Source of the DNA: Arthrobacter rhizophilus
Lineage (GTDB): Bacteria > Actinomycetota > Actinomycetes > Actinomycetales > Micrococcaceae
Assembly: GCF_026241105.1 (NCBI RefSeq)
Contig: NZ_JAPFFT010000012.1
Location: 1-64,000 of the forward strand
DNA: 64,000 nucleotides
Reading direction: 5' to 3'
The notes under the pieces are model-generated. The model saw only the letters and a list, made by a program, of their open reading frames with translations. It was not told the origin of the DNA and made no database searches. A program made the position numbers and the translations under genes. Shown in pieces: positions 15,614 to 53,184 of the stretch. Positions within the stretch are counted from its first letter, which is position 1; every line of letters begins with the position of its first letter.

Positions 15614-15614
15614 C

Positions 15615-17642
15615 TCAGCCCTCGGGGAACTCCGCGCCCAGCGCCGAGAGCACGCCGAATGCCTTGGTCCGGATTTCTTCGTATTCGTCCAGGGGCGTGG
15701 AGTCCGCAGTGATGGCGCCACCGACGCCGAGACTGAGCATGCGTCCGCCGTCGCCGTCCGGACCCATCACCAAAGTCCGGATCACGACGGCGAGGTCCGT
15801 CGCCGCGTTGAGCGAAAAGTAGCCAATCGCACCGGAGTAGACCCCGCGAGGGCCGGACTCCAGCTGGTCCAGGATGTCCATGGTGCTGATCTTCGGAGCG
15901 CCCGTCATGGACCCAGCGGGGAATGCGACGGCCACAGCCTCGGCCCGGGGGGCTCCCGGCCGCAACTGGGCGTCGATGGTGCTCACCATCTGGTGCACGG
16001 TGGCGTAGCTTTCCACTTCGCACAGCCGGCTGACAGTCACCGATCCCGGCACGGCAAAATGACTCAAGTCATTGCGGAGCAGGTCCACGATCATGATGTT
16101 CTCGGCACGGTCCTTGAGGGAAGATTCGAGGCCGCGCCTCAGCGCTTCGTCGATGACGGGATCGTTCGCCCGGGCCCTGGTGCCCTTGATCGGCTCGGCC
16201 CGCATGCCGCCGTCGGAGGTAATCCGCAAGAAGCGCTCCGGCGAGGTGCTGGCTACCGTCAGCTCGCCGAACCGCAAATAGCTTGCGAAAGGCGCGGGGT
16301 TGCGGTTACGCAGCGCGAGGTAGCTCTCCCACGGGTCCAGTCCCGGATCCGCGGCGCTCACGGTGGTGGTCAGGCAGACCTCGTACGTGTTGCCCTCGGC
16401 GATCTGGCGCTGGGCGTCAGTGATTTTGCCTTTGTATTCGTCTTCGGTGTCGCGGCTGGAAAAGCTCGGAACCGGCGGTGTTCCCGGCGCCGGCAGCGGC
16501 TTCTCCGAGGCGCGCACGACGGCGTGACGCACCCGGGCGAGCCACTCGCCGTCGTCGGGGTCAAGGGTGAGGGCCCAGACGTGGCCGCTCTGGTGGTCGA
16601 GGACCACCGCGCGCCCGGCGAAGATCAGTTGGGCGTCCGGGGTGTGCGATCGCACGTTGGAGCCACCCGTTTCGCGCTTCAGCTCGTATCCCAGGTAGCC
16701 GAGCCAGCCGAGGGTGAATCCGCATTCGTAGCCATCGGGGCCTTTGAGCGTTCTACGGCCCCACACCGAGTTGAGCCAACGGAAGAACAGCCCTTCGGCA
16801 GCCACGGATGCCTGGCCGGCCGTAATGGTGGTGACTCCATCGGAGTGCCGCGCCCACTGTCCGAAGGTTCCCGAATCGTCGGCCATGATGCTGAAGCGGC
16901 GGCGATCAGCGCCCGGCGCCGTGCTGTTGCCGGAAGCATTGGAGGAATCCAGCCATACTGCCCGTGGCGAATCGCCATACAGCTCGGAAAACAAGGCCGC
17001 CGGATCCGCGAGCACGCCCTCATGGCGCTCGTAGTTCAAACTCAAACCGCGGCGTGCCGAGAGTTCGGGAGCCAGTACGGCTGAGAGGGAGGGGAGGTAG
17101 TTCAGCGCTTGCAGCACGTCCTCCGGGGCATTGCCGTCCGCGCGGTTCCGGACCCTGATGTCAAGGTGTTCGAGGACGTCGTCGGTCTCCAGCCACTCGT
17201 CCTCCTGGGATGCCCAGCTGTCCCAGAATTGCTCGTAGCTGCTGCCGTCCCGGGCCAATGCACGGTGCTTGCGTTCGTCGTCGGGAGCGTCTACCCAAAC
17301 CACGGCGTCCAGCATGGGGCGGGCGGCGCTGGCGGCCGCCCCGACGCCCTCCACAATGACGATCTCGGCAGGCAGGGTCACGTGGCTGCGGCCGTCGTAG
17401 TGTTTCTCCCAGTCCCAACTCACCCATTCGGCCGCATCGCCGTTGTGCAGTGGTGCCAGGACGGTGGTGACGTAACGCTCGATGCCCGCGGCGAGGCCGT
17501 TCCAGCCCGGATAAATGTCCTCAAGATGGAACAGCGACACCTTGTGATGCATGCGGAGACGGGCGGCCAGTTCGACGGCGAGGGTGGTCTTTCCGGCGCC
17601 GGAGCGGCCATCGACGGCGATGATCACGGGTGCTGGGGTCAT
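15615..17642 (-). CDS. pabB: P-loop kinase-like domain fused to aminodeoxychorismate synthase component I
   Basis: This 675-aa protein has an unusual layout. Residues 1-200 are a small P-loop NTPase resembling uridine kinase, with Walker A as DGRSGAGKTTLA and EIVIVEGVGA further on. Residues about 215-675 are a chorismate-binding enzyme: EPIKGTRAR, ENIMIVDLLRNDLS and GSMTGAPKISTMDIL are the PabB/TrpE core motifs. It should aminate chorismate to aminodeoxychorismate, using ammonia from a separate glutaminase not seen here. ATG 17642 overlaps the phosphatase stop by 4 bases; the longer frame upstream only reads the other gene's repeat region. The role of the kinase-like part is unknown. Confidence 0.85.
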   Translation of the reverse strand: MTPAPVIIAVDGRSGAGKTTLAVELAARLRMHHKVSLFHLEDIYPGWNGLAAGIERYVTTVLAPLHNGDAAEWVSWDWEKHYDGRSHVTLPAEIVIVEGVGAAASAARPMLDAVVWVDAPDDERKHRALARDGSSYEQFWDSWASQEDEWLETDDVLEHLDIRVRNRADGNAPEDVLQALNYLPSLSAVLAPELSARRGLSLNYERHEGVLADPAALFSELYGDSPRAVWLDSSNASGNSTAPGADRRRFSIMADDSGTFGQWARHSDGVTTITAGQASVAAEGLFFRWLNSVWGRRTLKGPDGYECGFTLGWLGYLGYELKRETGGSNVRSHTPDAQLIFAGRAVVLDHQSGHVWALTLDPDDGEWLARVRHAVVRASEKPLPAPGTPPVPSFSSRDTEDEYKGKITDAQRQIAEGNTYEVCLTTTVSAADPGLDPWESYLALRNRNPAPFASYLRFGELTVASTSPERFLRITSDGGMRAEPIKGTRARANDPVIDEALRRGLESSLKDRAENIMIVDLLRNDLSHFAVPGSVTVSRLCEVESYATVHQMVSTIDAQLRPGAPRAEAVAVAFPAGSMTGAPKISTMDILDQLESGPRGVYSGAIGYFSLNAATDLAVVIRTLVMGPDGDGGRMLSLGVGGAITADSTPLDEYEEIRTKAFGVLSALGAEFPEG

Positions 17643-30529: not shown

Positions 30530-31372
30530 ATGGCCGCAGCGTGGTGGGGTCGGGGGTCGCAGCTGGGGCGCGGATCGGGCCTTGGCGGGCTGCGTGATGG
30601 AACATCCCCGGAGGCCTTGCGTCGCCCATTCTTTATTGCGGCAGTGGCCGTCTTCGCTTTGGTTGTCCTGGCTGAAATCGGCTTGTCGATCCTCCTCGGC
30701 GGGACCGCCGTCGAGCCCGTTTCCCCTGACCAAGCGGACAAGCTCGGCGTTCCTATCGACGTCTTCCTCAAAACCCAACGCGCGTCAGCTGCGCCGCCGG
30801 GCGCGGGAATCGGTTTTCTTGCGTTCCTGGACGGGCTGTTGCTGTTCACGGTGGTGATGCTCGGGCTCAGCCTGATCATGGACCTGCGGGTTTACGGCCG
30901 GGTTCAAGGCATCGTCACGTTGATTGTCACGTTTCTCTGGGTGGTGGGCGCGTTCCTCACGGCCCTCTTGGCCTTGGCAAAGCTGTTCCTGATGTTCGGC
31001 CTGTTCGTGGCTGCACCCTTCGGGACTATTGCCTACCTGGCGTTATGGGGGAGTTTTCCCACGAGCCAGGCGGCGGCCATCCTCGCCCTCCTCCTACTGC
31101 TGAAGATCGTTTTCGCAGTGTTGCTGGTCCTGAGCCAGCCGAAATTCCTGAAGGTCACCGGGCTTGTGGTGCTGCTTCTGGTATCGGTGCTTCTGCAGCT
31201 CATTCTTGGCCTCATCCACGGATTCCTCCCCGGACCGCTCGTGTCTATCGGGGATCAGTTCTGGGCGCTCATCACGGTGGTGGTGGCCTTGGTGTGGGCG
31301 CTCATCATGCTCATCGGATCCATCCCGGCCATTGTCAACGCGCTGCGGGTCAGCGGCTCGGGAGGCGACTGA
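30530..31372 (+). CDS. Polytopic membrane protein of unknown function
   Basis: This 280-aa protein has a short Gly/Arg-rich cytoplasmic start (WWGRGSQLGRGSGLGG), then about seven hydrophobic segments beginning with FFIAAVAVFALVVLAEIGL. I recognise no family motif. ATG 30530 is preferred to the in-frame start at 30461, whose extra residues read as unlikely sequence. It is divergent from the methyltransferase gene. Confidence 0.7.
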   Translation: MAAAWWGRGSQLGRGSGLGGLRDGTSPEALRRPFFIAAVAVFALVVLAEIGLSILLGGTAVEPVSPDQADKLGVPIDVFLKTQRASAAPPGAGIGFLAFLDGLLLFTVVMLGLSLIMDLRVYGRVQGIVTLIVTFLWVVGAFLTALLALAKLFLMFGLFVAAPFGTIAYLALWGSFPTSQAAAILALLLLLKIVFAVLLVLSQPKFLKVTGLVVLLLVSVLLQLILGLIHGFLPGPLVSIGDQFWALITVVVALVWALIMLIGSIPAIVNALRVSGSGGD

Positions 31373-32773: not shown

Positions 32774-33703
32774 CTACTGCTTGACCGCGCAGATCTGCGG
32801 CTGGACTTTGCAGATGTTGATCGGGTTCGGCTCGATGATGATGCCCCGGATTTCTGTGCGGACCAATACCAGGGCGTTTTGGTTCACTTTGCTTCCGACA
32901 TCGGGGTTGACGCCCACCACAACGCAGCTTTGCAGGAATCCTCCGGGTGAGGCCTGGCACACGGAGCCCTGGGTGAAATCCAGCTGGATTTTCGCGTTCT
33001 GGAAGGCTGTCCGTGCATCTTCGATGTGCAAGCCCAGGACCGCGGGCACCACCGATTTCACCGGCGTCGCGATCTCCAGGTTGACCATGGAACCGCGCCC
33101 GGCGGACTTGTTGGCCTCGGGAGACTGCGCGACCACTGTCCCGGCGGCTTGATCGCTTTCCTTGTCCGTTGTAGCTGCCGAGAAGCCGGCATTCTTGAGG
33201 ATTTGCACCGCCTCAGCTTGCGCCTTGCCTTTCACGTCCGGCACGTTGACGTCCTTGAGAAGGAACCAAATCACTCCACCAATCGCCGCCAGCAGCACGA
33301 CGCCGCCGATGATCACCCACAGCCACGGGAATCCGGGCCTCGGCTTGGTCGGTTCGGTGGGCTTGGTGACGGTCAGCGTGACCACGTGGGCCTGGTCGGC
33401 ATAGTCCTCAGGGGCGTCGTCGGCAGAGTAGGCGATCAGTTTCACGGGATATGAGCCCGGTGCGGCACCGGTGGTGTCGAAGTTGACTAGGTATTGCTCC
33501 GTGGCTCCGGCGGCGATAGTCCGCAACGGAGTGGGGATGGTGGTGTAGCTCGGCGACGGCGGTGTGCTCTCCGTGCCGGGAAAGGCCCCCAACACCACGC
33601 GTTCGGGGCCGGGAGCTCCGTTCGTCACGGACGCTGTGAGGGAGCCTTTGCCATCCTTGAGCTCCACCGTGGGAGAACTCAGCGTCATGGTGATGGTGCT
33701 CAT
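32774..33703 (-). CDS. CIS-operon membrane protein with two PASTA repeats
   Basis: This 309-aa protein is the last gene of the contractile injection operon. Residues 1-115 form an Ig-like/CARDB-like beta domain with no signal peptide. A Lys/Arg/Pro-rich linker is followed by one membrane span (about 125-148, WLWVIIGGVVLLAAIGGVIWFLL). Two PASTA-like repeats follow (about 152-217 and 218-287; NVPDVKGKAQAEAVQILKNAG marks the first). By the positive-inside rule the N-domain is cytoplasmic and the PASTA part outside. PASTA domains bind peptidoglycan or its fragments. An anchoring or cell-wall-sensing role for the CIS is an inference. Confidence 0.83.
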   Translation of the reverse strand: MSTITMTLSSPTVELKDGKGSLTASVTNGAPGPERVVLGAFPGTESTPPSPSYTTIPTPLRTIAAGATEQYLVNFDTTGAAPGSYPVKLIAYSADDAPEDYADQAHVVTLTVTKPTEPTKPRPGFPWLWVIIGGVVLLAAIGGVIWFLLKDVNVPDVKGKAQAEAVQILKNAGFSAATTDKESDQAAGTVVAQSPEANKSAGRGSMVNLEIATPVKSVVPAVLGLHIEDARTAFQNAKIQLDFTQGSVCQASPGGFLQSCVVVGVNPDVGSKVNQNALVLVRTEIRGIIIEPNPINICKVQPQICAVKQ

Positions 33704-33751
33704 GCGACAACCGCCTTTCGGGCAATGGCAATGGAAAAGTTGGCGGCCACG

Positions 33752-34222
33752 TCATCCTGCTTCCAGGAGCTTCAGCGCACACGTGCCAACAACGCGGCAC
33801 GTGATGCCTAGCTGACCTCCGGAGGTGCCGAAGGTCAGGCTGACGGTGTCGCCTGCTGTGACGTCCTGCTCTGTTCGCGTGCCTTCCACGACAAGGGTCA
33901 CGGTGACTGCTTGCTGGGGAGCCAGCCGGGCACGCTTGGTGGGGCTGCCCAGATCGAACGGGCCCCCGAATTTCCTGACCTCGAAGATGCAGCTTCCCGC
34001 CACCAGCAGCTGTGTTGCCGCCGCGGAGCATTGGCCGCCTGGGCTCATGAGATCCGAGGAAGCGAGGATGCCTCCTTTGGCAGCCTGCGAGAACCCCGCT
34101 TGCCAGGTGGCCGCCGCGTTGTTGTTCCCGCCGCCGCAACTGACGCCGAAAACCAGCACGAGCACGGCGATGACACCGCATAGGACCACCGCGATGATTG
34201 GCTTCCGGTTCTCATCGTTCAC
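33752..34222 (-). CDS. CIS-operon small membrane-anchored protein
   Basis: This 156-aa protein starts at GTG 34222, which overlaps the upstream stop (GTGA). It has a short charged N-terminus, then one membrane span or signal anchor (about residues 8-27, PIIAVVLCGVIAVLVLVFG) ending in a weak lipobox-like VSC. The outside part is beta-rich with several cysteines that could pair. No family is recognised. Its coupling to baseplate genes argues that it works with the particle at the membrane, perhaps with the PASTA protein. Confidence 0.72.
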   Translation of the reverse strand: MNDENRKPIIAVVLCGVIAVLVLVFGVSCGGGNNNAAATWQAGFSQAAKGGILASSDLMSPGGQCSAAATQLLVAGSCIFEVRKFGGPFDLGSPTKRARLAPQQAVTVTLVVEGTRTEQDVTAGDTVSLTFGTSGGQLGITCRVVGTCALKLLEAG

Positions 34223-34755
34223 GAGTCCATCACCGCGATCTCGTCCGTGACGTGGGCAGGCTTGATGCCCTTGACGATTCTGCGAATCAGCTCCCCTTGC
34301 CCAGCGGCGGCCGCGGGGACCAGAACCTTGATGTGGAACTCGCCCGGGACGGATTCGACGCCGAACCCCGCGATCCCGGTGGCCAGCTGCAGGAAGCGGG
34401 TGAGACCGTCCACGGTGCCCCGGCGTGCGGACAACGAGGCCGCGCACGCAATCAGGTCCCGTTGCCGGGCCAGCGGGACTCCTGCCGCCGCGGAGTCCAC
34501 GGATTCCGGGCCTGGTAGGGTCAGCCAGTCCAGGTCCACCCAGCGCGACAGAAACGGAATGAACGACGACGGCGAGCGGCCGGGATCGGGAACGGTGTGG
34601 ATGCGGTCCAAGACGTCCCGGACGGGCTGTTGCATGTCCTCCGCCACGGCGATGAGGGCCTGCAACGGCGTGCTGGTTTCCGCCGCCACTTGGTAGATCT
34701 CGGGCATGACCTTCAGCATCGGGGAGTTACGCAGCACGGGTTCAACCATTGCCAT
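34219..34755 (-). CDS. Baseplate protein, phage gpI-like tail protein family
   Basis: This 178-aa protein resembles the phage P2 gpI-like tail domain that accompanies large baseplate J proteins in CIS clusters. RWVDLDWL and LSARRGTVDGLTRFLQLATG are its landmarks. It overlaps the baseplate J gene by 14 bases and the next gene by 4. It should close the wedge of the baseplate. Confidence 0.78.
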   Translation of the reverse strand: MAMVEPVLRNSPMLKVMPEIYQVAAETSTPLQALIAVAEDMQQPVRDVLDRIHTVPDPGRSPSSFIPFLSRWVDLDWLTLPGPESVDSAAAGVPLARQRDLIACAASLSARRGTVDGLTRFLQLATGIAGFGVESVPGEFHIKVLVPAAAAGQGELIRRIVKGIKPAHVTDEIAVMDS

Positions 34756-37369
34756 GCACCACTTCGATTCGGTGGTCGCCGGAGCAGAACAGCCACGTGT
34801 TCGGGAGGGTCACTACGTCGTCAACCATCCGCCGCGTGCAGCTCGCCCAAGAAACGGCGTTGTCCGTGCTCCGGTAGATCCCCTTTGGGCCGGATGCGAG
34901 CACAAGCTGCGTACCGTCGTCGCGCACTACGCCGGACACCGCGCGGACGGGCTCGAAACGCGTCCTGTCCCGCAAGGGCAGATTGCAGTTCACGTCTGGC
35001 ACGCTCCACTGCGCGGAAGCCTGCCCGAGCTGCAGGCGAAGCACGCCTCCGCTCTGGGTGGCAGCATAGGCGGCATTGCCCATCACATGGACACCCCAAC
35101 AACTGCCACCAGTCCAGCCCGTGTTGAACTGTTCCCAGGAAGCCATGAGGGTAGCGTCGAACTGGGTGCGGGCGAGTTCGTCGATCTTCAAGCGGAGGCA
35201 GCCCGTCCCTGTACCCTCCGGCACGGAACGGCCGAGCCAGACATAGCTTGCGCCGCCGTCGTACTGGATCGTCATGCAGCGGATGTCCTCGCCCGCGGAT
35301 TTGATCTGATGGAAGCTGCCGGCCGCTCCCGCGTCGGGCGAGAGCCAAATGCCGGCGGAGGCTTCGGCAGCCACCACCACGCCGGTTCGGCCGCGCACGT
35401 CCACGAGTGCGTCCACCGCGTAGAAGCCACGGTCCGGCTGGCTCGCGTCCACCACGTTCTGGACCGGGATGGCGCCCTCGCCCATCGGCAGCTCATAGAG
35501 TCCGTGCTCGCCGGCGAGAAGCAGCACCGGGACGCCCTGCCGGTCCACCCAGCACAAGTCCGCGACGACGAAGCCCAGTTCCGCGGCCCGCCGCCACGAT
35601 TCGCCGAGGTCCTCGCTGACGTAGATGCGCGATCCGGTGGGGGTCACGGTGCTGACCGCCACCATGCCGGGATGCTGTCCGGGACCGAAACCGCCAGGGC
35701 CAAAGCCACCGGCGCCGAAGCGGCCCGGAGCCGGGGAGCGGAAAGGCGCGATGGACCTTACCGGTTCGCTGGCCGCCTCCGATCCGAATTCGGCGCAAGC
35801 CTCCCAGCCATCGCCCGCGTTGGTAGTGCGGAAGAGGGTACTGTCCCGGGCGACAAACCAGGTGTTGTCCTGTCCCTCGGCCTGCACCAGCGCCAAGGCA
35901 TCGGCGTCCGGAACCTTGTCCACTTCGAGCCGCACCCGGTCCACGTACTGGACTCCGGGTTCGGCTTCCTCCACGGCGCGGTAGAGGTTGGAGACGCGCA
36001 ACGGCTTGCCGAAGCCCGAACCGTAGTTGGAAGAGCTCAAGCTCAGGGGACTGATCCCTTCCGCGAGCCGGCCCACGATCCTGGACTTCACGGCCTCGGC
36101 GTCCTCATCTGGCCGGACTACGATCCTGGCGTCCACCAGCACTTGTTTATAGAGGCCCCAGCGGACCACGGGCTCTGCCCCCACGGTGGACCGGCGGCGC
36201 AAGTACTGTTCAACCTCGAGCCGGACGCTTTCACGTGCTTGGGCGTTCAGTTCGGCGGCGCGCACAGGACCCGGCGCACCCGGCACGAACGGCACCAGCA
36301 CTACCTCCACCTCGCCGGGTTTGGCGAAAGCCCAGATGTCCCGCCGCGTGAACGCACGCGCCCTGGCGACACCACCGTGACGCATGGCCAGGACCTCGTA
36401 GTCGCGCACAGTGACGGCCCTGTCCCGGGCCTGGAAATCCTGCGGTGCCCGGCGGAGCGCATTCTCCAGCGATTCGCCATCGCGGCCTCCCGTGGCAGGT
36501 TCCGGATTGCTGACCTTCAGCCCCGGGATCGGGGTGCGCATGACCGTCAACTGGCCCGCGCCGACGTTGCCGCGCAGGCCTCCGCCGCCGCGGTACCAGG
36601 CGCGCACCTCGGCCCCCGGACCCGGAACAACGGCCGTCCGCGCTACGGACTCCTCGTCCCACCATGCGAACATCACGACGCCGGCACTCCGATCGATCCG
36701 GACTGGCGCCTCATCCAGGCCCGCGTCTGCGAAGGCCTCAACTTCGCGGCAAAACCGGAAAGGCCTGCCATCTACCAGGACGGCTTCGCCGCTGCTCAGC
36801 TGGGTGCCCGCGGGGACTTCTATGGCGATGGACAGGCCCGCCCCGGAGACAATGGGCGCGTTGGGGATGACAAAGCTTTGGCCCGGTCGGCCGGTTCCGA
36901 CGCCGATGGGGACGGCGTCGTACAAGGTGACATCGGCTGCCGGGACCTGCACACTGGACTGGCCCGCCGCGAGGACGGCCGCCGTCGTCGTCGTGAACAC
37001 CGGTTGAGGGGCGCCGGGCACGCCGGGCAGGCAGCTGACCTGGGTCCCGCGGGGGATGCGGATGTCCTGGCTGTCGGTACTGCTTCCCGCCGACGATCGG
37101 GTGAACTCGAGGACGGTTTCGGCGGTGCTGGGCGGGTACAGGCTGGTTCCAAGCAGGTTCAAGTAGACCGCATACAGCTTTTCCGGTACCCGGTTGAGCC
37201 GGTACATCAGGGTGTCCGTGAGGTAAGCGAAAGCCTCGAGGATGGTGATGCCGGGATCATGGACAGAGAGATCCGTCCAATCCGGGGCAATCTGCTGGAT
37301 GCGCTCGCGGGCACCGGCCACCAAGTCCGCGAAGCTGCGATCGTCAAGATTCGGCACGGGGATACTCAT
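34742..37369 (-). CDS. Baseplate J-like protein fused to an Asp-box beta-propeller
   Basis: This 875-aa protein has two halves. Residues 1 to about 480 form a baseplate-wedge protein of the J/gp6-like family (DWTDLSVHDPGITILEAFAYL near residue 30, GRDGESLENALRRAPQ near 300). Residues about 485-875 form a repeat domain with Asp-boxes: TTNAGDGW, SEDLGESW, a looser SPDAG site, and STDNAVSW, the hallmark of sialidase/BNR-type propellers. A Gly/Phe-rich linker interrupts the propeller near residue 545. The fusion is unusual, since baseplate J proteins normally end after the wedge domain. The propeller may replace a tail fibre or bind a partner. Confidence 0.83.
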   Translation of the reverse strand: MSIPVPNLDDRSFADLVAGARERIQQIAPDWTDLSVHDPGITILEAFAYLTDTLMYRLNRVPEKLYAVYLNLLGTSLYPPSTAETVLEFTRSSAGSSTDSQDIRIPRGTQVSCLPGVPGAPQPVFTTTTAAVLAAGQSSVQVPAADVTLYDAVPIGVGTGRPGQSFVIPNAPIVSGAGLSIAIEVPAGTQLSSGEAVLVDGRPFRFCREVEAFADAGLDEAPVRIDRSAGVVMFAWWDEESVARTAVVPGPGAEVRAWYRGGGGLRGNVGAGQLTVMRTPIPGLKVSNPEPATGGRDGESLENALRRAPQDFQARDRAVTVRDYEVLAMRHGGVARARAFTRRDIWAFAKPGEVEVVLVPFVPGAPGPVRAAELNAQARESVRLEVEQYLRRRSTVGAEPVVRWGLYKQVLVDARIVVRPDEDAEAVKSRIVGRLAEGISPLSLSSSNYGSGFGKPLRVSNLYRAVEEAEPGVQYVDRVRLEVDKVPDADALALVQAEGQDNTWFVARDSTLFRTTNAGDGWEACAEFGSEAASEPVRSIAPFRSPAPGRFGAGGFGPGGFGPGQHPGMVAVSTVTPTGSRIYVSEDLGESWRRAAELGFVVADLCWVDRQGVPVLLLAGEHGLYELPMGEGAIPVQNVVDASQPDRGFYAVDALVDVRGRTGVVVAAEASAGIWLSPDAGAAGSFHQIKSAGEDIRCMTIQYDGGASYVWLGRSVPEGTGTGCLRLKIDELARTQFDATLMASWEQFNTGWTGGSCWGVHVMGNAAYAATQSGGVLRLQLGQASAQWSVPDVNCNLPLRDRTRFEPVRAVSGVVRDDGTQLVLASGPKGIYRSTDNAVSWASCTRRMVDDVVTLPNTWLFCSGDHRIEVVHGNG

Positions 37370-37800
37370 GCTGCACCTCCGGAATCAACGGGCAGGGCGA
37401 TGGCGAGCTGGTCCTCGAGCTGGGTTGAACGGACCCGGTAGCGCAACCGGACCTCCAGCACTTCAGGACTTTCGGGGGACCGGGACGCGTCCAAGGATAG
37501 GACTGTGATCCGGGGCTCCCATTGCTCCACGGCCCTGGCCACATAATGGATGGCCAAGCCCGCCGTGGTGTCATCCGCGGGCGCGAACGCGAGCCTGAAC
37601 AGATGGCAGCCGTAGGTGGGCCGGTTGACGCGCTCGCCGGGCCTGGTGCTCAGCAGCAGGAGGAGCGCCTGGCGCACGGAAGCTGCATCCGTGACGGTGG
37701 CGAGCCGTCCGTCGGGGGTCAGCCGCAAGCCGGGAAGGCCGGTGGCGGCATCGAAATCTGGATGGACGAATGCCACCGACTTGTATCTGGGGATGCTCAC
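37366..37800 (-). CDS. Baseplate wedge protein gp25/GPW family
   Basis: This 144-aa protein has the gp25 core: an N-terminal beta hairpin, ASVRQALLLLLSTRPGERVNRPTYGC with the conserved RPGER near residue 53, then a helix and beta strands. In T4 phage and in CIS this protein links the sheath ring to the baseplate and starts sheath assembly. It overlaps the baseplate J gene by 4 bases. Confidence 0.9.
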   Translation of the reverse strand: MSIPRYKSVAFVHPDFDAATGLPGLRLTPDGRLATVTDAASVRQALLLLLSTRPGERVNRPTYGCHLFRLAFAPADDTTAGLAIHYVARAVEQWEPRITVLSLDASRSPESPEVLEVRLRYRVRSTQLEDQLAIALPVDSGGAA

Positions 37801-37813
37801 GGCTGGCCGCCTC

Positions 37814-38155
37814 TCATGACCCCGCCGCCACGAATTCCTGGCCCGGCCTCCGGACCGTGTACTTCACGGCACCGGGCGGAGTGCCGTCCGTGTAGCCCTC
37901 CACAGTGTCCAGGCAGACCTTCTTGCCACCGATCCGGACAAAACCCGAATAGCCCTTGATCACCGGCAGCGTCTTGGTGCAGGGCTTGATGTTGAGGCCA
38001 ACGTTCGGGCACATGCTGATGTCGCGTCCCTGGGGATCGTTTTCGACCAAAACCAGCGAATCGGCAACACGAACCCACTTCTGGGAAGGCACGTTTTCCA
38101 CTTTGCCGTCGTGCCCGCAGCGCAGGATGGCCTCCTTGACCAGGAACTTCAGCAT
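37814..38155 (-). CDS. Spike-tip protein, PAAR-like
   Basis: This 113-aa protein has several glycine turns and four cysteines (in ILRCGHDG, MCPNV, KPCTK and KVCLD). It lies directly after the VgrG-like spike gene (TGATG overlap), the usual place for the tip gene. The sequence is not a canonical PAAR, but size, order and repeated beta turns fit a PAAR-like or DUF4280-type metal-bound tip. The cysteines could bind the metal. Family assignment is tentative. Confidence 0.6.
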   Translation of the reverse strand: MLKFLVKEAILRCGHDGKVENVPSQKWVRVADSLVLVENDPQGRDISMCPNVGLNIKPCTKTLPVIKGYSGFVRIGGKKVCLDTVEGYTDGTPPGAVKYTVRRPGQEFVAAGS

Positions 38156-39675
38156 CAGGCCTCCTCGAAATCGACGGTCTTGGCACGGATCTTCATGGCC
38201 CTGCCCGGTGCCTCCAGGACCAGGTCCGTTGCCGAGGTGATCCGCAGCTTCTCCGGCCCGAGTTCCACCGTGGAGCCGTGCCCGTCCGTGAAACTGATGG
38301 TGCGGCTGCCGCCGTCGAGCACTATCTGCTGCCCGTTAGCGCTACGGAAGGTGTAGCGGCTGTCCCGGGGGGTGTTCACTGTGTTGTCCGGCGTCTGCTC
38401 CCGGCCGTAGAGCCCGCCCAGAATGATGGCCTGCGCCGGATCCGTGGCGGGAAGCAGGACCAGCACGGTGTCCTCCGGGGCGGGCGGCACCACGAAACCT
38501 TTCCTTGCGCCGGCTCCCATTGTCAGGACGGGTGCCCAGGCTGATTCCAGCGGCGGATACGCGGGCAGCCGGACCCGTGCCCGGCCGCGTCCTTCCGGAT
38601 CCTCAACGTCCAGCACGGTGCCCAGGGTGAAGACGTCGGGACGCCGGGCGGTCGGGGGTTCCGGGGGTCGTGTGGTGATGGTGGTTTCGTAGCCCGTGCC
38701 GTCCAGCTTGTGAGTGGCGGTGGCAATTGCATAGGTGCCTTCGAGCGACGTCGCGAGTCCGCGTACGCGCACCCGGCGCCCGGCGCGGAGGCGGGGATCG
38801 CCGTCGGCCACGAAGACGGCGGTGACTTGCCCCGCCATCCGGACGTCCAGTTCCGCCTGGGCCAAGCCACGGGCCAGGGATTCGGAGGCGAAGGACTCGT
38901 TGTCGCGCAGGAGTTCGCCGCCGGCGCCAACACTGGCCAGCGCAGGGTCTGCGGAGACGTTGGCCTTGGCGTCGCTGCTCCCTGCGGTGGCCTGCTGCAC
39001 CGAGGCGTCGTCGGACCGCCAGCCCGAGGTCTTGGCACCGAGATACGCCGGCTCCTGGCTCAACTCCACCTCGGCCGAATGCAGGCTACTGCCCAGTTCC
39101 AGATCAATCGGTTCACCGTCGCCGGACAATTCCGTCAGCCTCAGCGCATCGCCATCCACCACGGGGTACGCACCCACCCGGGCGCTCTGCTCCACCAAGA
39201 GACTCAAGTCCGAGCGGGCACATTGGTACACCTCACCCAGCCGGGTTGCGCCGCCCACCACTTCCAGGCCCGTACCCTCCGTGAGCGTGCGGGCCAGCCC
39301 GGCGAGATCGACGTCGCTGTGCAGCCGGGTGAACTGGCGTTTCCTCAACCGGTGCAGGGCATCGTAGGCGCGGACCCTGACTTCCTGCGAAAGATCTGCC
39401 CCGTAGCTGTGCTCCACCACCGTCACTTCGCCCACGAAAAGAGGAGTTCGTTGGCCCCCCAATTCCACGCGCAGGGCGTCCCCAGGTGCGGGGTCCACCC
39501 CGCCGCGTGCCGTCGCCGAGCGTCCCGGGCCGGGGCGCCAGCTAATGAGGCATTGGGCCGGCCTGGCGAGCGAGCTGAGGACCTGCACGGAGATGATCGC
39601 CGCGGTTTCGGCCGCGGAGAGGCGGCGTCGCCCGAGGGTGACGATGAGTTCCGGGAGGCCCTGGAGCTGTTTCAT
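38155..39675 (-). CDS. VgrG-like spike protein (gp27/gp5-type)
   Basis: This 506-aa protein has an N-terminal gp27-like hub, an OB-fold near residue 350 (FTLGTVLDVEDPEGRGRARVRLP, LLPATDPAQAIILGGLYG), and a C-terminal beta-helix with repeated short strands ending EAPGRAMKIRAKTVDFEE. It forms the trimeric hub and needle of the particle. ATG 39675 overlaps the previous gene's stop by 4 bases; the longer upstream frame is not used. No extra effector domain follows the helix. Confidence 0.88.
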   Translation of the reverse strand: MKQLQGLPELIVTLGRRRLSAAETAAIISVQVLSSLARPAQCLISWRPGPGRSATARGGVDPAPGDALRVELGGQRTPLFVGEVTVVEHSYGADLSQEVRVRAYDALHRLRKRQFTRLHSDVDLAGLARTLTEGTGLEVVGGATRLGEVYQCARSDLSLLVEQSARVGAYPVVDGDALRLTELSGDGEPIDLELGSSLHSAEVELSQEPAYLGAKTSGWRSDDASVQQATAGSSDAKANVSADPALASVGAGGELLRDNESFASESLARGLAQAELDVRMAGQVTAVFVADGDPRLRAGRRVRVRGLATSLEGTYAIATATHKLDGTGYETTITTRPPEPPTARRPDVFTLGTVLDVEDPEGRGRARVRLPAYPPLESAWAPVLTMGAGARKGFVVPPAPEDTVLVLLPATDPAQAIILGGLYGREQTPDNTVNTPRDSRYTFRSANGQQIVLDGGSRTISFTDGHGSTVELGPEKLRITSATDLVLEAPGRAMKIRAKTVDFEEA

Positions 39676-40430
39676 GGCGCCTCGCCAACCGGCGGAACGG
39701 CGAGGGGGCCGTTGAAATGGGCGGGATCGTCGATGTTGTTGTACTCCAGCAGCAACTTCCACAGCAGCGGCGTGCCAAAGGCGGCCAGGCTGAGGCGCCC
39801 CAACTCACCCGGCGGAACCTCCGGAAGCAGCTCGCCGCCGTCGGGCGCTGTTGCGTCCCTGTCCGTGCTACCGTCGCCGCCCACCGCGAGCGTATCCACG
39901 GGCGGCGCCGTTAGATCAACGGCCGGGAGCCGCTGGGCGAGCTCGTAATTCTCGCCCCCTTCCTCGTCAGCGCTCTGCCCGACCCGCACGAACACCATGC
40001 GCATCCACGAGCGCAAGGGGGAGCCATCCGGAGAAAAACGGTCGAAGCGCTCTGCCACCTCGGTCACGATCCCGGGCACGTTCCATGCGCGCCCCCACAC
40101 GAACCGGACCGACGGCGGCCGGCGTTGCCTCTCCACCTCGGCCGAGTTCTCCGCGAGCGCCCAGATGGGCCGCGTCATCTGGCGCACGTCCTGGACATGG
40201 AGCGACGCCGGCGCGAGGTCGACGTCGAACAGCAGATCCAGGCGAAGCTCGGTGTGTCCGCCTCCCGTGAAGAGCAGGGGATCGTCCGCGAGGCCCGTTC
40301 CCGTCAGCTTGCCGCCCGCCGAACGCCGCGGCTCAACACCGGCGGTCCGTGACATCACCACCGTCTCCGGATTGAGCAGGCAGCCAAGGTGTTCCCCGGT
40401 GTCCTCGATCAGGAAAGCGACGCGTTCCAT
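39672..40430 (-). CDS. CIS tube-cap / LysM-type adaptor (Pvc7-like)
   Basis: This 252-aa protein begins RVAFLIEDTGEHLGCLLNPE and continues with GGHTELRLDLLFDVD, the N-terminal domain of CIS tube-associated proteins. The end (PPGELGRLSLAAFGTPLLWKLLLEYNN) is a LysM-like module. In PVC and Afp particles this protein joins the inner tube to the spike. It is separated by 1 base from the proline-rich gene upstream and overlaps the spike gene. Confidence 0.83.
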   Translation of the reverse strand: MERVAFLIEDTGEHLGCLLNPETVVMSRTAGVEPRRSAGGKLTGTGLADDPLLFTGGGHTELRLDLLFDVDLAPASLHVQDVRQMTRPIWALAENSAEVERQRRPPSVRFVWGRAWNVPGIVTEVAERFDRFSPDGSPLRSWMRMVFVRVGQSADEEGGENYELAQRLPAVDLTAPPVDTLAVGGDGSTDRDATAPDGGELLPEVPPGELGRLSLAAFGTPLLWKLLLEYNNIDDPAHFNGPLAVPPVGEAP

Positions 40431-40431: not shown

Positions 40432-41583
40432 TCAGACCGCCAACTGTTCGCGGTTCAGCCGGGCGGCGCGGGCCATCGCTGCTGTTGCTGCCGCCGATGT
40501 TTGTTCCGTGGTGCGCAGTGCGGGGCGCGGGGCCAATTCCGGCCAGTTTCCGGTGATTGGTGCGGCGGGGGTACGGTCCGCCGTCGTGCTGGGGTGGCCT
40601 TGGTGCTCTGCATTCTTCAAGCCGACGACGACGGCGGGAGCCGCTTCCGGCGGCCGGTGCGGTGGTGTTGTGGGCGGCTGAGGGGCGGTTGCGTTTGGTG
40701 GGGTGGTTACGGCAGCCGGGGCTGCGCCCGGTGGGCTTGTTTCGATGGCCGTGGCTGGGGGTCCTGGGTGATGTGTTGCTTGCCCAGGGGCCGGCCGGGT
40801 TGTCGCGTTGGCTGAAGGCGTCCCGCGGAGTCTTAGGAGGTGGCGTGGTTGCGGGGCATCCGGGGATGCGGACTCCGAGGAGGGGATTGCCAGGGTTTCG
40901 ACCGAATCCATGCTCGGGGACGTTCGCACGGAGGGAGAGGAGGCCGCCACCGGTTCCGGAGCGCGGACGGGAGGGGAGCTAGCGGCGTGAGCACTCTGGA
41001 GGCGTTTGCCCAGCGTCAGCCGGGGGAGGAAGGACGACTTTGGGGCGGTTGGGGCTTCGGAGACGGTCACGGCGTAGGCGGGAGAGGGAGCACCAGGCGC
41101 CGGACCGTCGTCTGGGATTGGATTTTCGCGGGTGTACCGCCGGGGCTCGGACTCAAGGACGCGGTCCTGGAGCGAGCCAGGACTCCTGGTTTCCCTGACG
41201 GTACTCGGGCGGTATGTGTCCGGATGTGAGCGAGCGTTGGGGCTGGAGGGGGGTATATCTGCAGGAGCGTTGGGGCTGGAAGGGGGTATATCTGCAGGAG
41301 CGTTGGGAGGGGACGGGACGAGGCCGGCGTCGAGCAATAACCGGACCCAATGCTCCGGTGCGCCGGACATGTCCAGTCTCCGTGCCGGCGTCGGGCCTTC
41401 CGTTCCAACACCGCGCTGCATTCCAACTACTCCAGCAGGCCGGCCACCACCTCGGGAGCCAGCCCTGGCGCCACGGTTCGGCTCCGGTTCCAGTCTCTCC
41501 GCGAGTTCCCGGAGCCGCCGCGCCACCGAACGACGCCACGGGTTCCGGGGCCACCTCCCATCAAGCCACGGGAGCGCGGGCAT
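40432..41583 (-). CDS. Proline-rich disordered protein in the CIS operon
   Basis: This protein of about 383 aa matches no family I know. Residues 1-40 are basic and helical (RRSVARRLRELAERLEPE). A short helix with EHWVRLLLDAGLV lies near residue 80, and repeats of SPNAPADIPPS follow. The rest is Pro/Ala/Ser/Thr-rich and should be unfolded, ending in a short helix (ATAAMARAARLNREQLAV). Its place between tube and Pvc7-like genes is that of Pvc6 in other clusters. It could be a linker, a tube filler or cargo. The start at 41583 overlaps the tube gene by 23 bases and is the least certain in the operon. Confidence 0.65.
   Translation of the reverse strand: MPALPWLDGRWPRNPWRRSVARRLRELAERLEPEPNRGARAGSRGGGRPAGVVGMQRGVGTEGPTPARRLDMSGAPEHWVRLLLDAGLVPSPPNAPADIPPSSPNAPADIPPSSPNARSHPDTYRPSTVRETRSPGSLQDRVLESEPRRYTRENPIPDDGPAPGAPSPAYAVTVSEAPTAPKSSFLPRLTLGKRLQSAHAASSPPVRAPEPVAASSPSVRTSPSMDSVETLAIPSSESASPDAPQPRHLLRLRGTPSANATTRPAPGQATHHPGPPATAIETSPPGAAPAAVTTPPNATAPQPPTTPPHRPPEAAPAVVVGLKNAEHQGHPSTTADRTPAAPITGNWPELAPRPALRTTEQTSAAATAAMARAARLNREQLAV
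41232..41308. repeat. 33-bp tandem repeat within the proline-rich gene
   Basis: Two full copies (41232-41264, 41265-41297) and a partial third code for the 11-residue SPNAPADIPPS unit on the minus strand. The period is a multiple of three, so the array can grow or shrink in frame. Confidence 0.88.
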
Positions 41584-42052
41584 CGTCGAGCTCCAAGCGG
41601 TCGTACGCGATGCTGAGGGATTCGATGGCCAGGTCCTTGCCGAGGGCGTCCAACGGGGCTCCGAACCAGTCGCACGGCCAGGCGCCCAGCAAGTTCCAGC
41701 GACGGACCTCCACCGAGCCGGCGTCGTTGAGCATGGCGACGGAGACGTTGCGCCGCTCCACATGCCCATCGACGGCCTTGAACAGCCATTGGAGCATTTC
41801 CGTGGAGTCGGTGAGTCCGTAGCGGAGCGTTACCGGGGTGTACTCGACCTGGCCGGGGATGACGCGGACCGTGCTGTTCTCGCCACCGGAGCGGTACAAG
41901 ATGCGGTCGATTTTCAGCCCGAGGCCTTCAACCTTGGTGAAATGCCCCTGGACCACGCCTTGGATGACGAGTTTGAAGTTGTAGGCGCGGTACGGGTCCA
42001 CTACGTTCCCGGGTTGGGCAGCAGGTGCCGGGTTGCTTGGCTGCGTGCTCAT
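41561..42052 (-). CDS. CIS inner tube protein (T4 gp19-like)
   Basis: This 163-aa tube protein has YNFKLVIQGVVQGHFTKVEG near residue 24 and TEMLQWLFKAVDG near residue 85, the marks of gp19/Hcp-like CIS tubes. Hexamers stack inside the sheath. It is the only tube gene of the operon. It starts 1 base after the sheath stop. Confidence 0.92.
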   Translation of the reverse strand: MSTQPSNPAPAAQPGNVVDPYRAYNFKLVIQGVVQGHFTKVEGLGLKIDRILYRSGGENSTVRVIPGQVEYTPVTLRYGLTDSTEMLQWLFKAVDGHVERRNVSVAMLNDAGSVEVRRWNLLGAWPCDWFGAPLDALGKDLAIESLSIAYDRLELDDARAPVA

Positions 42053-42053: not shown

Positions 42054-43343
42054 TCAGGCTCCTGCGCTCTCTGTCTCGCTGGTGTTGTCGGCCGATTGCA
42101 TGAGCTTGAAGATCACGAATTCGGCGGGTTTGACGGGTGCGATGCCGATCAGGGTGACAACCTGCCCGGCATCGCGGACTTCGGGCGGGTTGGTTTCTTC
42201 GTCGCATTTCACAAAGAAGGCCTGTTGGGGAGTAGTACCCAACAGCGCCCCGTCCCGCCACACATTGGTCAGGAATGCGCCGATGTCGCGGCGGATGGAC
42301 TTCCACAACGTGTGGTCGTTGGGTTCAAAGACCACCCAGCGCGTTCCGTCTGCCACTGATTCCTTGATCATGTTGGTCAGCCTGCGGACGTTGACGTACC
42401 GGTATTCGCTGGCCTCGGGCGCCTTGGTCCGGGCACCCCAGATGCGGATGCCCTCGCCTGGGAAATAGCGGATGCAGTTCACCCCCGCCGGGTTCAGCAC
42501 TTCCTGTTCGCCGCGGCTGACCCGCCGGACCAGGTCCAGTGCCCCTTGGATCGGCTCGTTGGCGGGAGCCTTGTGGACACCGCGCGTCGCGTCGACGCGC
42601 GCCCAGACCCCTGCAACATGGCCCGACGGCGGTTGGGTCACCTTCTTGCCGGAGACTGGATCGATCATGACAATCCAGGGGAAGTACAGTGCGGTGTAGC
42701 CGCCGGGGGATTGGGGAGCGCCGATCGCGTCCTCGCCAGTTGCCCGCCCGGCGTTCGGCTTGTCGGTACCGGGCTTGGGGTCGTCAGACGTGTCCGCGTC
42801 GCCTTCGTCGCCCGCTTTCGCGCCGGCCGACTTAGGCGCGTCCGGCACACCGGAAGTGGCCGCCCGGGTGAGGGCTCCGACGTCGTCCACTTTCTCCGGA
42901 GTGTCCATGATTGCCATGCGGTCCTGCCGCAGGGGATGCTCCACGTGGGCCTGCAGCGCCGCGTACGCTTCGGCGTCGGCGTATCCGGGGGCGGCCACCA
43001 TGGAGATGTCGTCGATCGCTTCGAACAGGGTCACGCCGCTGGGCTTTGCGGCGGTGCCGGTGAGGCTGCCACCGGTACCGATGTTGACCACGTAGCAGCG
43101 GCTGCCGCCGTTGGCGAAGAATCCGAAGACCGCGTTGGACAGGGGTGTCCCCTGCGTGGATTTGCCGACGTATTGGTCCACGAACTGGGTCCAGTTGTCC
43201 AGAACCCTTGCTTCATCCGGATACGCCAAAGGGTCCGGGGAAACTCCTACAAAACCGGCAATGCTGGTGCTGACCTGGCCGATCGAGCGTGCACCGCTGG
43301 GCACTTCCTGTACATACACTCCCGGCGCCTGGTAATTCGCCAT
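42054..43343 (-). CDS. CIS contractile sheath protein
   Basis: This 429-aa sheath starts with the family signature YQAPGVYVQEVPSGARSI, and its C-terminal half has WVVFEPNDHTLWKSIRRDIG followed by FVKCDEETNPP. GGGAG lies 6 nt before ATG 43343. Residues about 155-215 form an Asp/Lys/Gly-rich insertion, likely exposed on the outside of the sheath and absent from compact sheaths. A single sheath gene suggests a one-protein sheath. Confidence 0.93.
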   Translation of the reverse strand: MANYQAPGVYVQEVPSGARSIGQVSTSIAGFVGVSPDPLAYPDEARVLDNWTQFVDQYVGKSTQGTPLSNAVFGFFANGGSRCYVVNIGTGGSLTGTAAKPSGVTLFEAIDDISMVAAPGYADAEAYAALQAHVEHPLRQDRMAIMDTPEKVDDVGALTRAATSGVPDAPKSAGAKAGDEGDADTSDDPKPGTDKPNAGRATGEDAIGAPQSPGGYTALYFPWIVMIDPVSGKKVTQPPSGHVAGVWARVDATRGVHKAPANEPIQGALDLVRRVSRGEQEVLNPAGVNCIRYFPGEGIRIWGARTKAPEASEYRYVNVRRLTNMIKESVADGTRWVVFEPNDHTLWKSIRRDIGAFLTNVWRDGALLGTTPQQAFFVKCDEETNPPEVRDAGQVVTLIGIAPVKPAEFVIFKLMQSADNTSETESAGA

Positions 43344-43356
43344 GGTGTGCTCCCTT

Positions 43357-44052
43357 TCACTCCCACCGGATGATGACCGGCAGGCTGCTCGTGTCTGCTG
43401 AGACTTCACGTTCAGTGCCGCGGACAGCCACGACAAAGTGCTGGAGTTCGTCCGCCGAGGCCAGGACCTCGAAATGGCCGGTGGGATCGCTCACGACGGC
43501 GGTGACGGACGAATGCGGGCGGATATAGGCGTCGGGGATGCCTTTGTTGTGGACGTCGACAAGCCTTCCGTGGATCCGGCGCGCCACGCTGGTCGTGGCG
43601 ACGAGGGGTTCAGTGACCGGCGGGCCGGAAGGCTCGTCGAGACGTATCCCCACAGGGACGCGGATCAGGAAACCGAGGCCTTGGCGGATGCCGGAATCGT
43701 ATTCGTCCGGCTGGAATTCGCCGCTGGAGACCACCGAGTACTGGGTGTTTTGCTCGATGGCAACCAGGAGCTTCTCCATGTTGTCCAGTTGCGTGGGACC
43801 GTGGCATTCCACGGCTACTTTGAGTTCGAGGTCCAGAAGGGGGCCTTCCCGCCGGGAGCGGCCCACCCTGTTCATCGCGACGGTGTGGACAGTGACAGGT
43901 GCGTCGGTGGATTGGCCGGTAGGTGGTTCGGAGCCGTCATCGAAGCGGACACGCTCGGGCGAAATGGCGTCGGAAAGCACCCCGAGGAGCTCGGTCAACG
44001 ATGATCGCACAACACCCACGGTGACACCCCAGTCCACGAAAGTGGCCAGCAC
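43357..44052 (-). CDS. DUF4255 / Pvc16-like cap protein, first CIS gene
   Basis: This 231-aa protein of the DUF4255 family caps the distal end of the tube and sheath in Afp/PVC-type particles. Residues about 15-145 form that domain (VRSSLTELLGVLSDAI, then EKLLVAIEQNTQYSVV). The last 90 residues look like a carboxypeptidase-regulatory-like beta sandwich (RRIHGRLVDVHNKGIPDAYIR), a known add-on in the family. GTG 44052 is used here, but other GTG codons up to 44010 are possible. The gene lies only 17 bp after the MarR stop. Confidence 0.83.
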   Translation of the reverse strand: MLATFVDWGVTVGVVRSSLTELLGVLSDAISPERVRFDDGSEPPTGQSTDAPVTVHTVAMNRVGRSRREGPLLDLELKVAVECHGPTQLDNMEKLLVAIEQNTQYSVVSSGEFQPDEYDSGIRQGLGFLIRVPVGIRLDEPSGPPVTEPLVATTSVARRIHGRLVDVHNKGIPDAYIRPHSSVTAVVSDPTGHFEVLASADELQHFVVAVRGTEREVSADTSSLPVIIRWE

Positions 44053-44069: not shown

Positions 44070-44606
44070 TTACTCCCGCAGTGGCCTGCGAGTCACTGGG
44101 ACCTCAGGAATAACTCCATTCGATGGTTCACGGTTTGGGGTGACGCCACCGCGGGCAGTTACGGTTGCCTCAACGACTCCCTGCATGAAGGTCACCACCG
44201 TTCGGAGTTCTTCCGGCGAAAGTGCGCCAATTACCGGGGCAATGGCGCCCGCCAGGGGAGAAAACAGTTCGCTGCCAGTGGCGCGCGCGGAATCGGTCAT
44301 CTCCAGATGAACTTGGCGGCGGTCCTTTTCGCTGCGGCGACGCGCCAGATGACCTGCCCGGTCCAGCCGATCCACCAGTGCGGTTGTTGCCGGTGAGCTC
44401 AGGTTGAGCGCGGCTCCGAGCGCGCCAGGAGTCATGGTCTTGCCCTCGCGGGCGGCGGTCACCATGGCCGCCAATGCATTCAGGTCGGTGCGATGGAGGT
44501 GGTGGCGGCTACTGACGGCCTCCACGTAGCGCTCAGTTTCGACTGTGAACTGCTGGAGGAGCCCGAGGAGTGCCGCTGCGGACGGAACGTACTGATTGTC
44601 ATCCAT
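44070..44606 (-). CDS. MarR family transcriptional regulator
   Basis: This 178-aa winged-helix regulator contains TPGALGAALNLSSPATTALVDRLDRAGHLARRRSEKDRR-type sequence near residues 57-95, the MarR recognition helix and wing. It is divergent from the MMPL exporter, the usual target of such a pair. The CIS operon begins 17 bp after its stop on the same strand, so the MarR promoter may also feed the CIS genes. Confidence 0.87.
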   Translation of the reverse strand: MDDNQYVPSAAALLGLLQQFTVETERYVEAVSSRHHLHRTDLNALAAMVTAAREGKTMTPGALGAALNLSSPATTALVDRLDRAGHLARRRSEKDRRQVHLEMTDSARATGSELFSPLAGAIAPVIGALSPEELRTVVTFMQGVVEATVTARGGVTPNREPSNGVIPEVPVTRRPLRE

Positions 44607-50569: not shown

Positions 50570-52498
<1,929 letters not shown>

Positions 52499-52500
52499 CC

Positions 52501-53184
52501 ATGCCCCACCACGGCAACGAAGCAGAGCACTCACCTTCCAACAACGAGGGTAAGCACGACGAGCGTGAAGGAGCCGGTCAGCAGAAGCCAATTATTCGGG
52601 ACAACCGCAAGGTTGACCCGGAGACCGGGGCCGCCCGCCACCCCCAAGGATCGGCAGCAGATTCCAACGCCGCTGCCGCTGAGGGTGACGCCCTGTCCCA
52701 GGCTGAGGAAATCCTCAACGGCATCGAGGTGCCGGCTGAAGAGTCGGTAGCCCCCGGTGCCGCTGCAGAAGCAGAGGCCGCGGAACTCCGCAACGACCTC
52801 CTGCGCCTGCAGGCCGAGTACGTCAACTACCGCAAGCGCGTGGAACGTGACCGAGCCGTCGCAGGGGAAATGGCCGTCATCGGCGTCTTGAACTCCCTGC
52901 TGCCGGTGCTCGACGACGTCGACGCCGCCCGCCAGCACGGCGACCTCGTGGACGGCCCGTTCGCCTCGATCGCCGCCAAGCTGGAGAACGCGCTGAAAAC
53001 GTACGGCCTGGAGCGCATCGCGGAAACTGGCGTCGATTTCGACCCCACGATCCACGAAGCCCTCATCCAGCAGCCGGGCGAGGACATCGAAGTGGACACC
53101 GTCAGCCAAGTGCTGCGCTCCGGCTACCGCTCCGGCGACCGAGTGCTTCGTGCGGCTCAAGTGATCGTGGCTGTGCCGGCGTAG
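52501..53184 (+). CDS. grpE: Nucleotide exchange factor GrpE
   Basis: This 227-aa protein has a long charged, probably disordered N-terminus, a coiled-coil helix (ELRNDLLRLQAEYVNYRKRVERD near residue 97), and the C-terminal beta domain with the GrpE signature PTIHEALIQQPGED. It swaps ADP for ATP on DnaK. It starts 2 bp after the dnaK stop. Confidence 0.95.
   Translation: MPHHGNEAEHSPSNNEGKHDEREGAGQQKPIIRDNRKVDPETGAARHPQGSAADSNAAAAEGDALSQAEEILNGIEVPAEESVAPGAAAEAEAAELRNDLLRLQAEYVNYRKRVERDRAVAGEMAVIGVLNSLLPVLDDVDAARQHGDLVDGPFASIAAKLENALKTYGLERIAETGVDFDPTIHEALIQQPGEDIEVDTVSQVLRSGYRSGDRVLRAAQVIVAVPA

Follow-up and report, generated by a model that had tools for sequence, protein, structure and literature searches.

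How does a contractile injection system (CIS) whose particles lie free in the cytoplasm find the membrane, and how does it receive its cue to fire? The question is raised by a gene cluster of Arthrobacter rhizophilus in the 64,000-nucleotide stretch analysed here (contig NZ_JAPFFT010000012.1, positions 1 to 64,000, hereafter the window), a compact CIS operon that runs from 44052 to 32774 on the minus strand and closes with two membrane protein genes, designated MEM and BIT. An earlier note on this DNA had read these two genes as the end of the operon. Both open reading frames (ORFs) are called as coding and are coupled to the baseplate genes, and their relatives are conserved down to 18% identity for BIT and 16% for MEM; the set continues, however, with a polytopic membrane protein, POLY, encoded on the plus strand, which by its conservation is the third part. 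All three accompany a long form of the baseplate protein J with a propeller-like extension. We think it rather probable that BIT, MEM and POLY are a dedicated docking module for a cytoplasmic particle with a propeller-bearing baseplate, recruited to membrane sites marked by the cell wall and licensed there. The wall probably either keeps the CIS in place or gives it the cue to fire. Published work is cited by PubMed Central (PMC) number.

The membrane set and its tie to a long baseplate J

BIT has no hydrophobic start, and its hydropathy profile contains a single hydrophobic span, at residues 130-148. Two PASTA repeats follow (approximately 152-212 and 218-283; PF03793, 72.5 bits against a Pfam cut-off of 23.2), and then a short cysteine-bearing tail. 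The AlphaFold model, built on a 55-member alignment, has a mean predicted local distance difference test (pLDDT) score of 88 and a predicted template-modelling (pTM) score of 0.43; it consists of a beta sandwich over residues 1-115, a helix at 127-149 and two PASTA folds; because of the pTM value, the placing of these domains relative to one another is unreliable. Pfam, hydropathy and model agree with the earlier description of single-span proteins, with BIT composed of an immunoglobulin (Ig)-like domain, a span and two PASTA repeats. For the sandwich, the structural matches are WxLIP and PapD-like chaperone domains, with Z scores of about 10-12, and, by Foldseek, MSP/ASH domains, while the PASTA part matches PASTA repeats 1-2 of Mycobacterium tuberculosis PknB (5e10) with a Z score of 12.9. 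The predicted Ig-type fold that the N-domain has in common with its structural matches reveals no function.

Hydropathy, sequence and model together suggest that BIT is bitopic, with its N-terminus in the cytosol and its PASTA repeats outside. Across 55 BIT proteins, cysteines number 3 in 7,182 residues on the N-terminal side and 156 in 9,518 residues of ectodomain, and the window protein has none before its span. MEM has an N-terminal span at residues 9-27 and then about 125 residues with four cysteines (C65, C78, C142 and C148) that are invariant in 42 sequences; the beta-rich domain behind the span would lie outside. An N-in, C-out topology of BIT fits because its N-terminal side is poor in cysteine and MEM has these four invariant ones. 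Structure matches to MEM are weak, to jelly-roll, cupin or carbohydrate modules, and permit no assignment of its fold. Pfam has no family for MEM or POLY, and for BIT gives PASTA only.

Compared with the window protein, the two nearer groups of relatives keep the N-domain and span better than the ectodomain, with median identities of 78 versus 62% in 15 loci and 52 versus 27% in a further 8 (a locus with two BITs is represented by the copy whose N-domain is closer). In an N-domain tree the closest relatives of the window sequence are Arthrobacter strains.

The J protein found with this set has 832-906 residues in the loci examined, the usual core being followed by a BNR/Asp-box extension of about 390 residues that is absent from the short J of other CIS examined. 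The core matches a solved 652-residue baseplate J with E 6e-77, and the extension matches the BNR protein 3b7f with E 8e-4. Asp boxes average 2.3 per extension in 42 long J, against 0.06 in shuffled sequences and none in 31 short J.

A search with the J alignment covered contigs of one genome for each of 84,980 species; the best 80 of 187 stretches were kept and gave 78 loci. Where J has at least 780 residues (41 loci), BIT is present in 40, MEM in 39 and POLY in 39, and 37 of the 40 have BIT in the first 4 kb that follow J. The exceptions include L107, whose contig ends inside BIT, and L114, which has MEM and POLY with no BIT seen on a contig that starts about 4 kb before J. Where J is shorter (37 loci), BIT occurs in three (L096, L109 and L118), all with a broken or split long-J gene, and L117 is cut off. 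The remaining 33 have no BIT, MEM or POLY; in 22 of these the sequence extends 4 kb or more beyond J, and 16 of the 22 also include 8 kb before it. Fragments of BIT of 200 residues or fewer, and distant members of drifted iterated families (83 and 72 members), were not counted, and L110_2 (262 residues, with an LppM match) was removed as a false member. In Arthrobacter sp. Hiyo8 the J gene (L109:10001-12646) is split over three frames, by sequencing error or as a pseudogene.

Closer to the window the same association is found. In the family, five of 197 genomes have a full long J, and all five have the BIT N-domain and POLY. The N-domain is found in two other family genomes, once in G766 and once as a weak match to an unrelated signal-peptide protein, and POLY in one other, again G766, where part of gpI, MEM, BIT and POLY lie on a contig that ends inside gpI. 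Eight further family genomes with partial J matches only have neither BIT nor POLY. A phylum sample of 396 genomes gave BIT matches in 31, strong (E <1e-20) only in G000, G428 and G578, all of which have this CIS; the other 28 are weak (E 2.7e-8 to 9.4e-5), and for one of them, G314, locus searches found no CIS gene.

Conserved linkage of PASTA genes with this type of CIS had been named beforehand as a test of the earlier proposal, and it is seen in Actinomycetota, in one Chloroflexota contig (L107, an Anaerolineae metagenome-assembled genome), in Deinococcota and in Alphaproteobacteria. Searching plasmids with J by tblastn returned five records at 80% coverage or more (one Deinococcus, three Rhodovulum, one Paracoccus); four clusters were examined (Deinococcus sp., two Rhodovulum and Paracoccus), the fifth record having the identity and score of H2. 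All four carry J, gpI, BIT and POLY. The records themselves annotate a "PASTA domain-containing protein" after the gene at the gpI position, with nothing in between in three and with a single membrane protein gene intervening in Deinococcus, and Pfam confirmed PASTA in all four BITs. Hidden Markov models (HMMs) built from the window and the survey loci recognize the BIT N-domain (9e-29 to 1.5e-11) and POLY (1e-67 to 2e-50) in each, and MEM clearly in Deinococcus (1e-14). In Paracoccus, POLY immediately precedes the gene at the cap position. Viral contigs gave no relative of POLY, and phages gave only partial J matches, in 10 records. After the CIS module of the Paracoccus plasmid (L162:16872-18239 and 13807-16607), two annotated serine/trypsin-like protease genes and one annotated peptidoglycan-binding gene (PG_binding_1, just below the Pfam cut-off) may encode effectors.

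Could ordinary envelope genes simply have come to lie beside a phage-tail remnant? The gene between BIT and POLY does resemble an ordinary aminotransferase gene. The set is nevertheless conserved on chromosomes and plasmids of several phyla, is absent from the 33 short-J loci (22 of which extend far enough past J), and, among the family genomes sampled, is missing from those without this CIS except for G766 and the one weak match. Because of these linkage data we regard coincidence as extremely improbable. A role in self-protection or repair, with the membrane proteins guarding or resealing the envelope of the producer when particles fire, without docking, would suit three envelope proteins, as well as the divergent transcription of POLY in Micrococcaceae, often beyond other genes. 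Coupling to the long J is more natural for a docking partner, however, and the soluble, conserved Ig domain would be left without a role; we judge protection to be improbable. Docking remains the reading that we prefer and, since the module goes with the long J, the co-occurrence suggests J as the docking partner.

The outer domain of BIT: a possible anchor or sensor

PASTA matches occur in only 4 open frames of the entire 4.81 Mb genome. On BIT they are usual, found by Pfam and a local HMM in 39 of 55 proteins and in 34 of 44 clusters (window included), 32 of them after gpI and 2 (L112 and L116) upstream of the cap gene; the clusters are not independent because many are close Arthrobacter relatives. 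In an order survey, 105 of 297 genomes match the whole BIT protein at 1e-6. Beyond the window genome, only in G012 and G030 does the match begin at the N-terminus and include the span. The remaining matches listed cover mainly the PASTA part, some extending back into the N-domain. The idea that the PASTA protein is a chance neighbor or a PknB relative was rejected on its rarity in the genome, the coverage in the order survey, and the family and long-J linkage.

Other BITs carry other outer domains. Pfam finds META in two, TIG in three (one of which, L096, is identified), Big_2 in one and a YncE-like propeller in one, and recognizes nothing above cut-off in the remaining ectodomains; of the two BITs in G578, one combines PASTA with LamG and the other has three PASTA repeats. 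On a tree of 58 N-domains (quick search, midpoint root), the state switches between PASTA and other at least six times, and well supported branches force three of these switches. The ectodomain is exchanged between relatives, and since some relatives have META, TIG, Big_2 or propeller ectodomains, PASTA is an option, not a requirement. The proposed link between PASTA and this CIS describes the usual state, but not a fixed one.

The docking reading could work as follows. The Ig-like domain of BIT would lie in the cytoplasm and touch the baseplate there, with J/Cis11 and its propeller as the likeliest partner. The protein would cross the membrane once, its PASTA repeats holding peptidoglycan or its precursors outside, and MEM and POLY would complete a membrane complex. 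Features of the cell wall would mark the membrane sites to which the particle is recruited and where it is licensed to fire. The module occurs in culturable Arthrobacter-type bacteria and in Rhodovulum, strains with the cluster including Paenarthrobacter aurescens TC1 and Rhodovulum sulfidophilum DSM 1374, and the firing licence is therefore directly testable.

What the outer part does can be understood in two ways, both of them forms of the docking explanation. In the first, PASTA fixes the docking complex to peptidoglycan, and the particle is held and fires outward with no signal involved. Three membrane parts are what a docking complex would have, the META, TIG, Big_2, LamG and propeller ectodomains suggest interchangeable binders, the set occurs also in Alphaproteobacteria, and a precedent exists in TagL, which anchors the type VI secretion system (T6SS) to the wall (PMC8253398). 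Against a static anchor, exchange of ectodomains fits changing signals equally, and the annotations of the alphaproteobacterial loci, which are as far as this search extended, name no outer-membrane component. We consider the anchor a serious but tentative possibility, the likelihood of which overlaps with that of the docking explanation as a whole.

In the second, PASTA would bind muropeptides or lipid II, a change would pass to the Ig domain, and the particle would fire, for example in regulated cell death after wall damage. The PASTA domain of PknB binds muropeptides (PMC3145798) and lipid II (PMC6428115), and the variation of outer domains seen on the N-domain tree is what sensors show. 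In Streptomyces coelicolor, contraction of the CIS requires the membrane adaptor CisA (SCO4242), whose outer domain, with similarity to solute-binding proteins, has been proposed to sense stress (PMC12237407). The sensor is made somewhat doubtful by the linker between the repeats: the residues of the PknB PASTA3-4 linker proposed to bind muropeptide (PMC6428115), which concern a wall with meso-diaminopimelic acid, are not conserved in the window linker when the alignment is read. No kinase domain is found in BIT by Pfam, and its only NCBIfam match, to the model PknB_PASTA_kin, scores 61 bits against a cut-off of 450. Peptidoglycan binding is not known to be universal among PASTA domains. Fixed attachment to peptidoglycan accounts for the data no less well than a PASTA trigger, and as to the outside role we lean slightly towards anchoring or positioning over genuine triggering. 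In a bolder version, a self-contained complex of BIT, MEM and POLY would sense peptidoglycan or lipid II through its PASTA part, and wall state would determine when the propeller-bearing baseplate docks and fires; the module would travel with the CIS between Gram-positive and Gram-negative hosts, partly on plasmids, swapping its outer domain to change the signal. This version seems to us unlikely.

The linker difference is one of several observations that weigh against a wall-directed docking module. The positive-inside bias of BIT is weak, Lys and Arg being richer before the span in 30 of 55 proteins, richer after it in 18 and equal in 7. The most divergent group (19 loci) keeps the N-domain hardly better than the ectodomain, at 31 versus 28%. 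The local HMM detects no PASTA in 10 of the 44 clusters. The parts do not always stay together: L108 has BIT without MEM and POLY; L112, L113, L116 and G578 carry BIT upstream of the cap gene instead of after gpI; and around a BIT of G012 (L042:5739-6620, with a DUF4232 ectodomain), the 16 kb of contig examined show no CIS gene. In Alphaproteobacteria MEM is hardly recognizable (7e-6 in Paracoccus, 1.5e-3 and 1.6e-3 in Rhodovulum), the Rhodovulum values being no better than one that the same model gives to a BIT. Absence from short-J loci is partly a matter of contig ends, since 11 of the 33 hold less than 4 kb after J.

Organization of the CIS cluster

The features of the cluster are collected in Table 1. 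Sheath, tube, Cis7, VgrG, gp25, J and gpI lie together, which identifies a contractile injection system. Intergenic gaps from VgrG to MEM are -1, 13, -4, -14 and -4 bases, the last being the overlap of the MEM start with the gpI stop; 48 bases separate MEM from BIT and 72 separate BIT from the adjoining aminotransferase gene, beyond which POLY is located. Genes were called by our own script, except on the plasmids, where the annotation of the record was used.

Table 1. Features of the CIS cluster in the window, from the probable cap gene to BIT in operon order, followed by POLY.
Feature	Position	Strand	Product	Basis and remarks
Probable cap (Cis16-like)	43357..44052	-		No Pfam, PHROGs or NCBIfam match; role proposed from position; first gene of cluster
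Contractile sheath	42054..43343	-		Scanned as longer ORF 42054-43436
Inner tube protein	41561..42001	-		
Pro/Ala/Arg-rich, apparently disordered protein	40432..41560	-		Composition; approximate start
Cis7-like tube/baseplate protein	39672..40430	-		Pfam (CIS_tube PF19266)
VgrG-like spike	38155..39675	-		Phage_base_V; scanned as longer ORF 38155-39762
PAAR-position small protein	37814..38155	-		Position; no PHROGs or NCBIfam match; outside the Pfam scan
gp25-like baseplate wedge protein	37366..37800	-		
Baseplate J	34742..37369	-	Cis11-like core ~1-480; Asp-box (BNR, beta-propeller-like) extension ~481-875	
gpI-like baseplate protein	34219..34755	-		Pfam (Tail_P2_I)
MEM	33752..34222	-	156 residues, GTG start	Called coding; family alignment
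BIT, proposed bitopic adaptor	32774..33703	-	309 residues, ATG start	Hydropathy, Pfam, AlphaFold model
POLY, polytopic membrane protein	30530..31372	+	~280 residues, PFGT motif	Conservation; start set by alignment with relatives (longest ORF begins at 30461)

An AAA+ ATPase gene is usual in extracellular CIS. Pfam scans of 20 frames between 32.7 and 57.7 kb, a scope that leaves aside the small operon genes and the remaining genome, gave no AAA+ ATPase match. The disordered protein keeps its position, and hardly its sequence, in the loci examined, and may be a cargo or length-setting protein. A gene for a MarR-type regulator (44070-44606) shares the strand of the cap gene and precedes it by 17 bases; it adjoins a divergent MMPL transporter gene, and its product may regulate either. 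Elsewhere in the window are a SAM-IV riboswitch (6761-6873, 79.7 bits) and a frame antisense to dnaK (51266-52591) that matches the Pfam family NAD-GH (PF10712) and is probably a spurious overlap frame.

Comparison with membrane-associated systems

No description of the module was found by title and start of abstract in the open-licence PMC literature on CIS, T6SS or phage tail-like systems with PASTA. The membrane complex of the T6SS, TssJ/TssL/TssM with TagL, gives a contractile tail its platform in the membrane and includes a part that binds peptidoglycan (PMC8253398), and the membrane set may loosely be regarded as its counterpart. Pfam scans of BIT, MEM and POLY gave no TssJ, TssL, TssM or OmpA-like match, which leaves room for remote similarity. 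The PASTA kinases PknB, PrkC and StkP resemble BIT in having a cytosolic domain, one span and PASTA repeats outside; BIT differs from them by having no kinase domain and two repeats. The thylakoid-anchored CIS of cyanobacteria offers a parallel in being fired while attached to an internal membrane, and has been placed in another clade (PMC12998442).

The nearest comparison is with other actinobacterial CIS. CIS_tube was found in 29 of 396 genomes, from which 32 loci were taken, the match of the window itself excluded. A protein with a predicted span is encoded two genes after J, following gpI or whichever gene replaces it, in 25 of these loci; the other seven loci are cut, have no J, or resemble other system types. 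Twenty of the 25 slot proteins have at least two CxxC motifs in their first 300 residues and no PASTA, and all 15 of these that were scanned have a zinc-ribbon Pfam match, partly below cut-off. The remaining five carry PASTA (L044, L055, L056, L064 and L069, a member of the subtype described here). Among the 24 slot proteins other than L069, NCBIfam finds the glycan-binding NADase_discoid in 13, and 4 match its PASTA-kinase model. A CisA-type zinc ribbon opens both L056 and L044 (1.2e-11 and 1e-8, by an HMM not trained on them), which have three PASTA repeats. Homology between the Ig domain of BIT and those of L044, L055, L056 and L064 was suggested by an iterated HMM and rejected: a strict HMM gave no match, shuffled sequences reached E 0.45, and hhalign gave a probability of 1.9% (E 0.026), so that the two were treated as separate frames. 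At least two frames of putative adaptor, then, carry PASTA, that of BIT and a zinc-ribbon/double-Ig one, with no sequence homology demonstrable between them.

Some actinobacterial CIS clusters also encode very large proteins of 1,677-2,600 residues (L051:8938-16740, L059:4863-10916 and L061:14869-19899), in which a span is predicted around residue 220 and which resemble, by profile, neighboring carboxypeptidase-regulatory-repeat proteins.

CisA itself is bitopic with a cytosolic N-terminus, and the baseplate protein Cis11 is its predicted partner (PMC12237407). BIT is like CisA in its predicted bitopic, N-in topology, in having its gene just downstream of the baseplate genes, and in belonging to a CIS without tail fibers (PMC12237407); it occupies the same gene slot, though in the window MEM lies between gpI and BIT. 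The CisA-type slot proteins (L062:10065-11453 and others of Streptomyces type) start with a zinc ribbon, which an extended stretch of low complexity follows, and most of them close with a discoidin-like domain, glycan-binding of NADase type by NCBIfam; a text search of PMC12237407 gave neither "zinc" nor "discoidin". Both terminal features, derived here, are lacking in the window BIT, which differs by a folded Ig domain without cysteine, by PASTA, and by the company of MEM and POLY. Set against these slot proteins, BIT is a counterpart of CisA by slot and topology and not a family member by the features tested. The adaptor role proposed in the earlier note gains from this shared slot and topology, while that proposal had overlooked POLY and the tie to a propeller-bearing J. 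BIT would then represent a second frame of CIS membrane adaptor beside CisA, with a defined outer domain whose usual class of ligand is known. The comparison points to a rule that the outer domains of CIS adaptors often belong to wall- or glycan-binding kinds, with PASTA on BIT and on four slot proteins from other frames, and NADase_discoid in 13 of 24.
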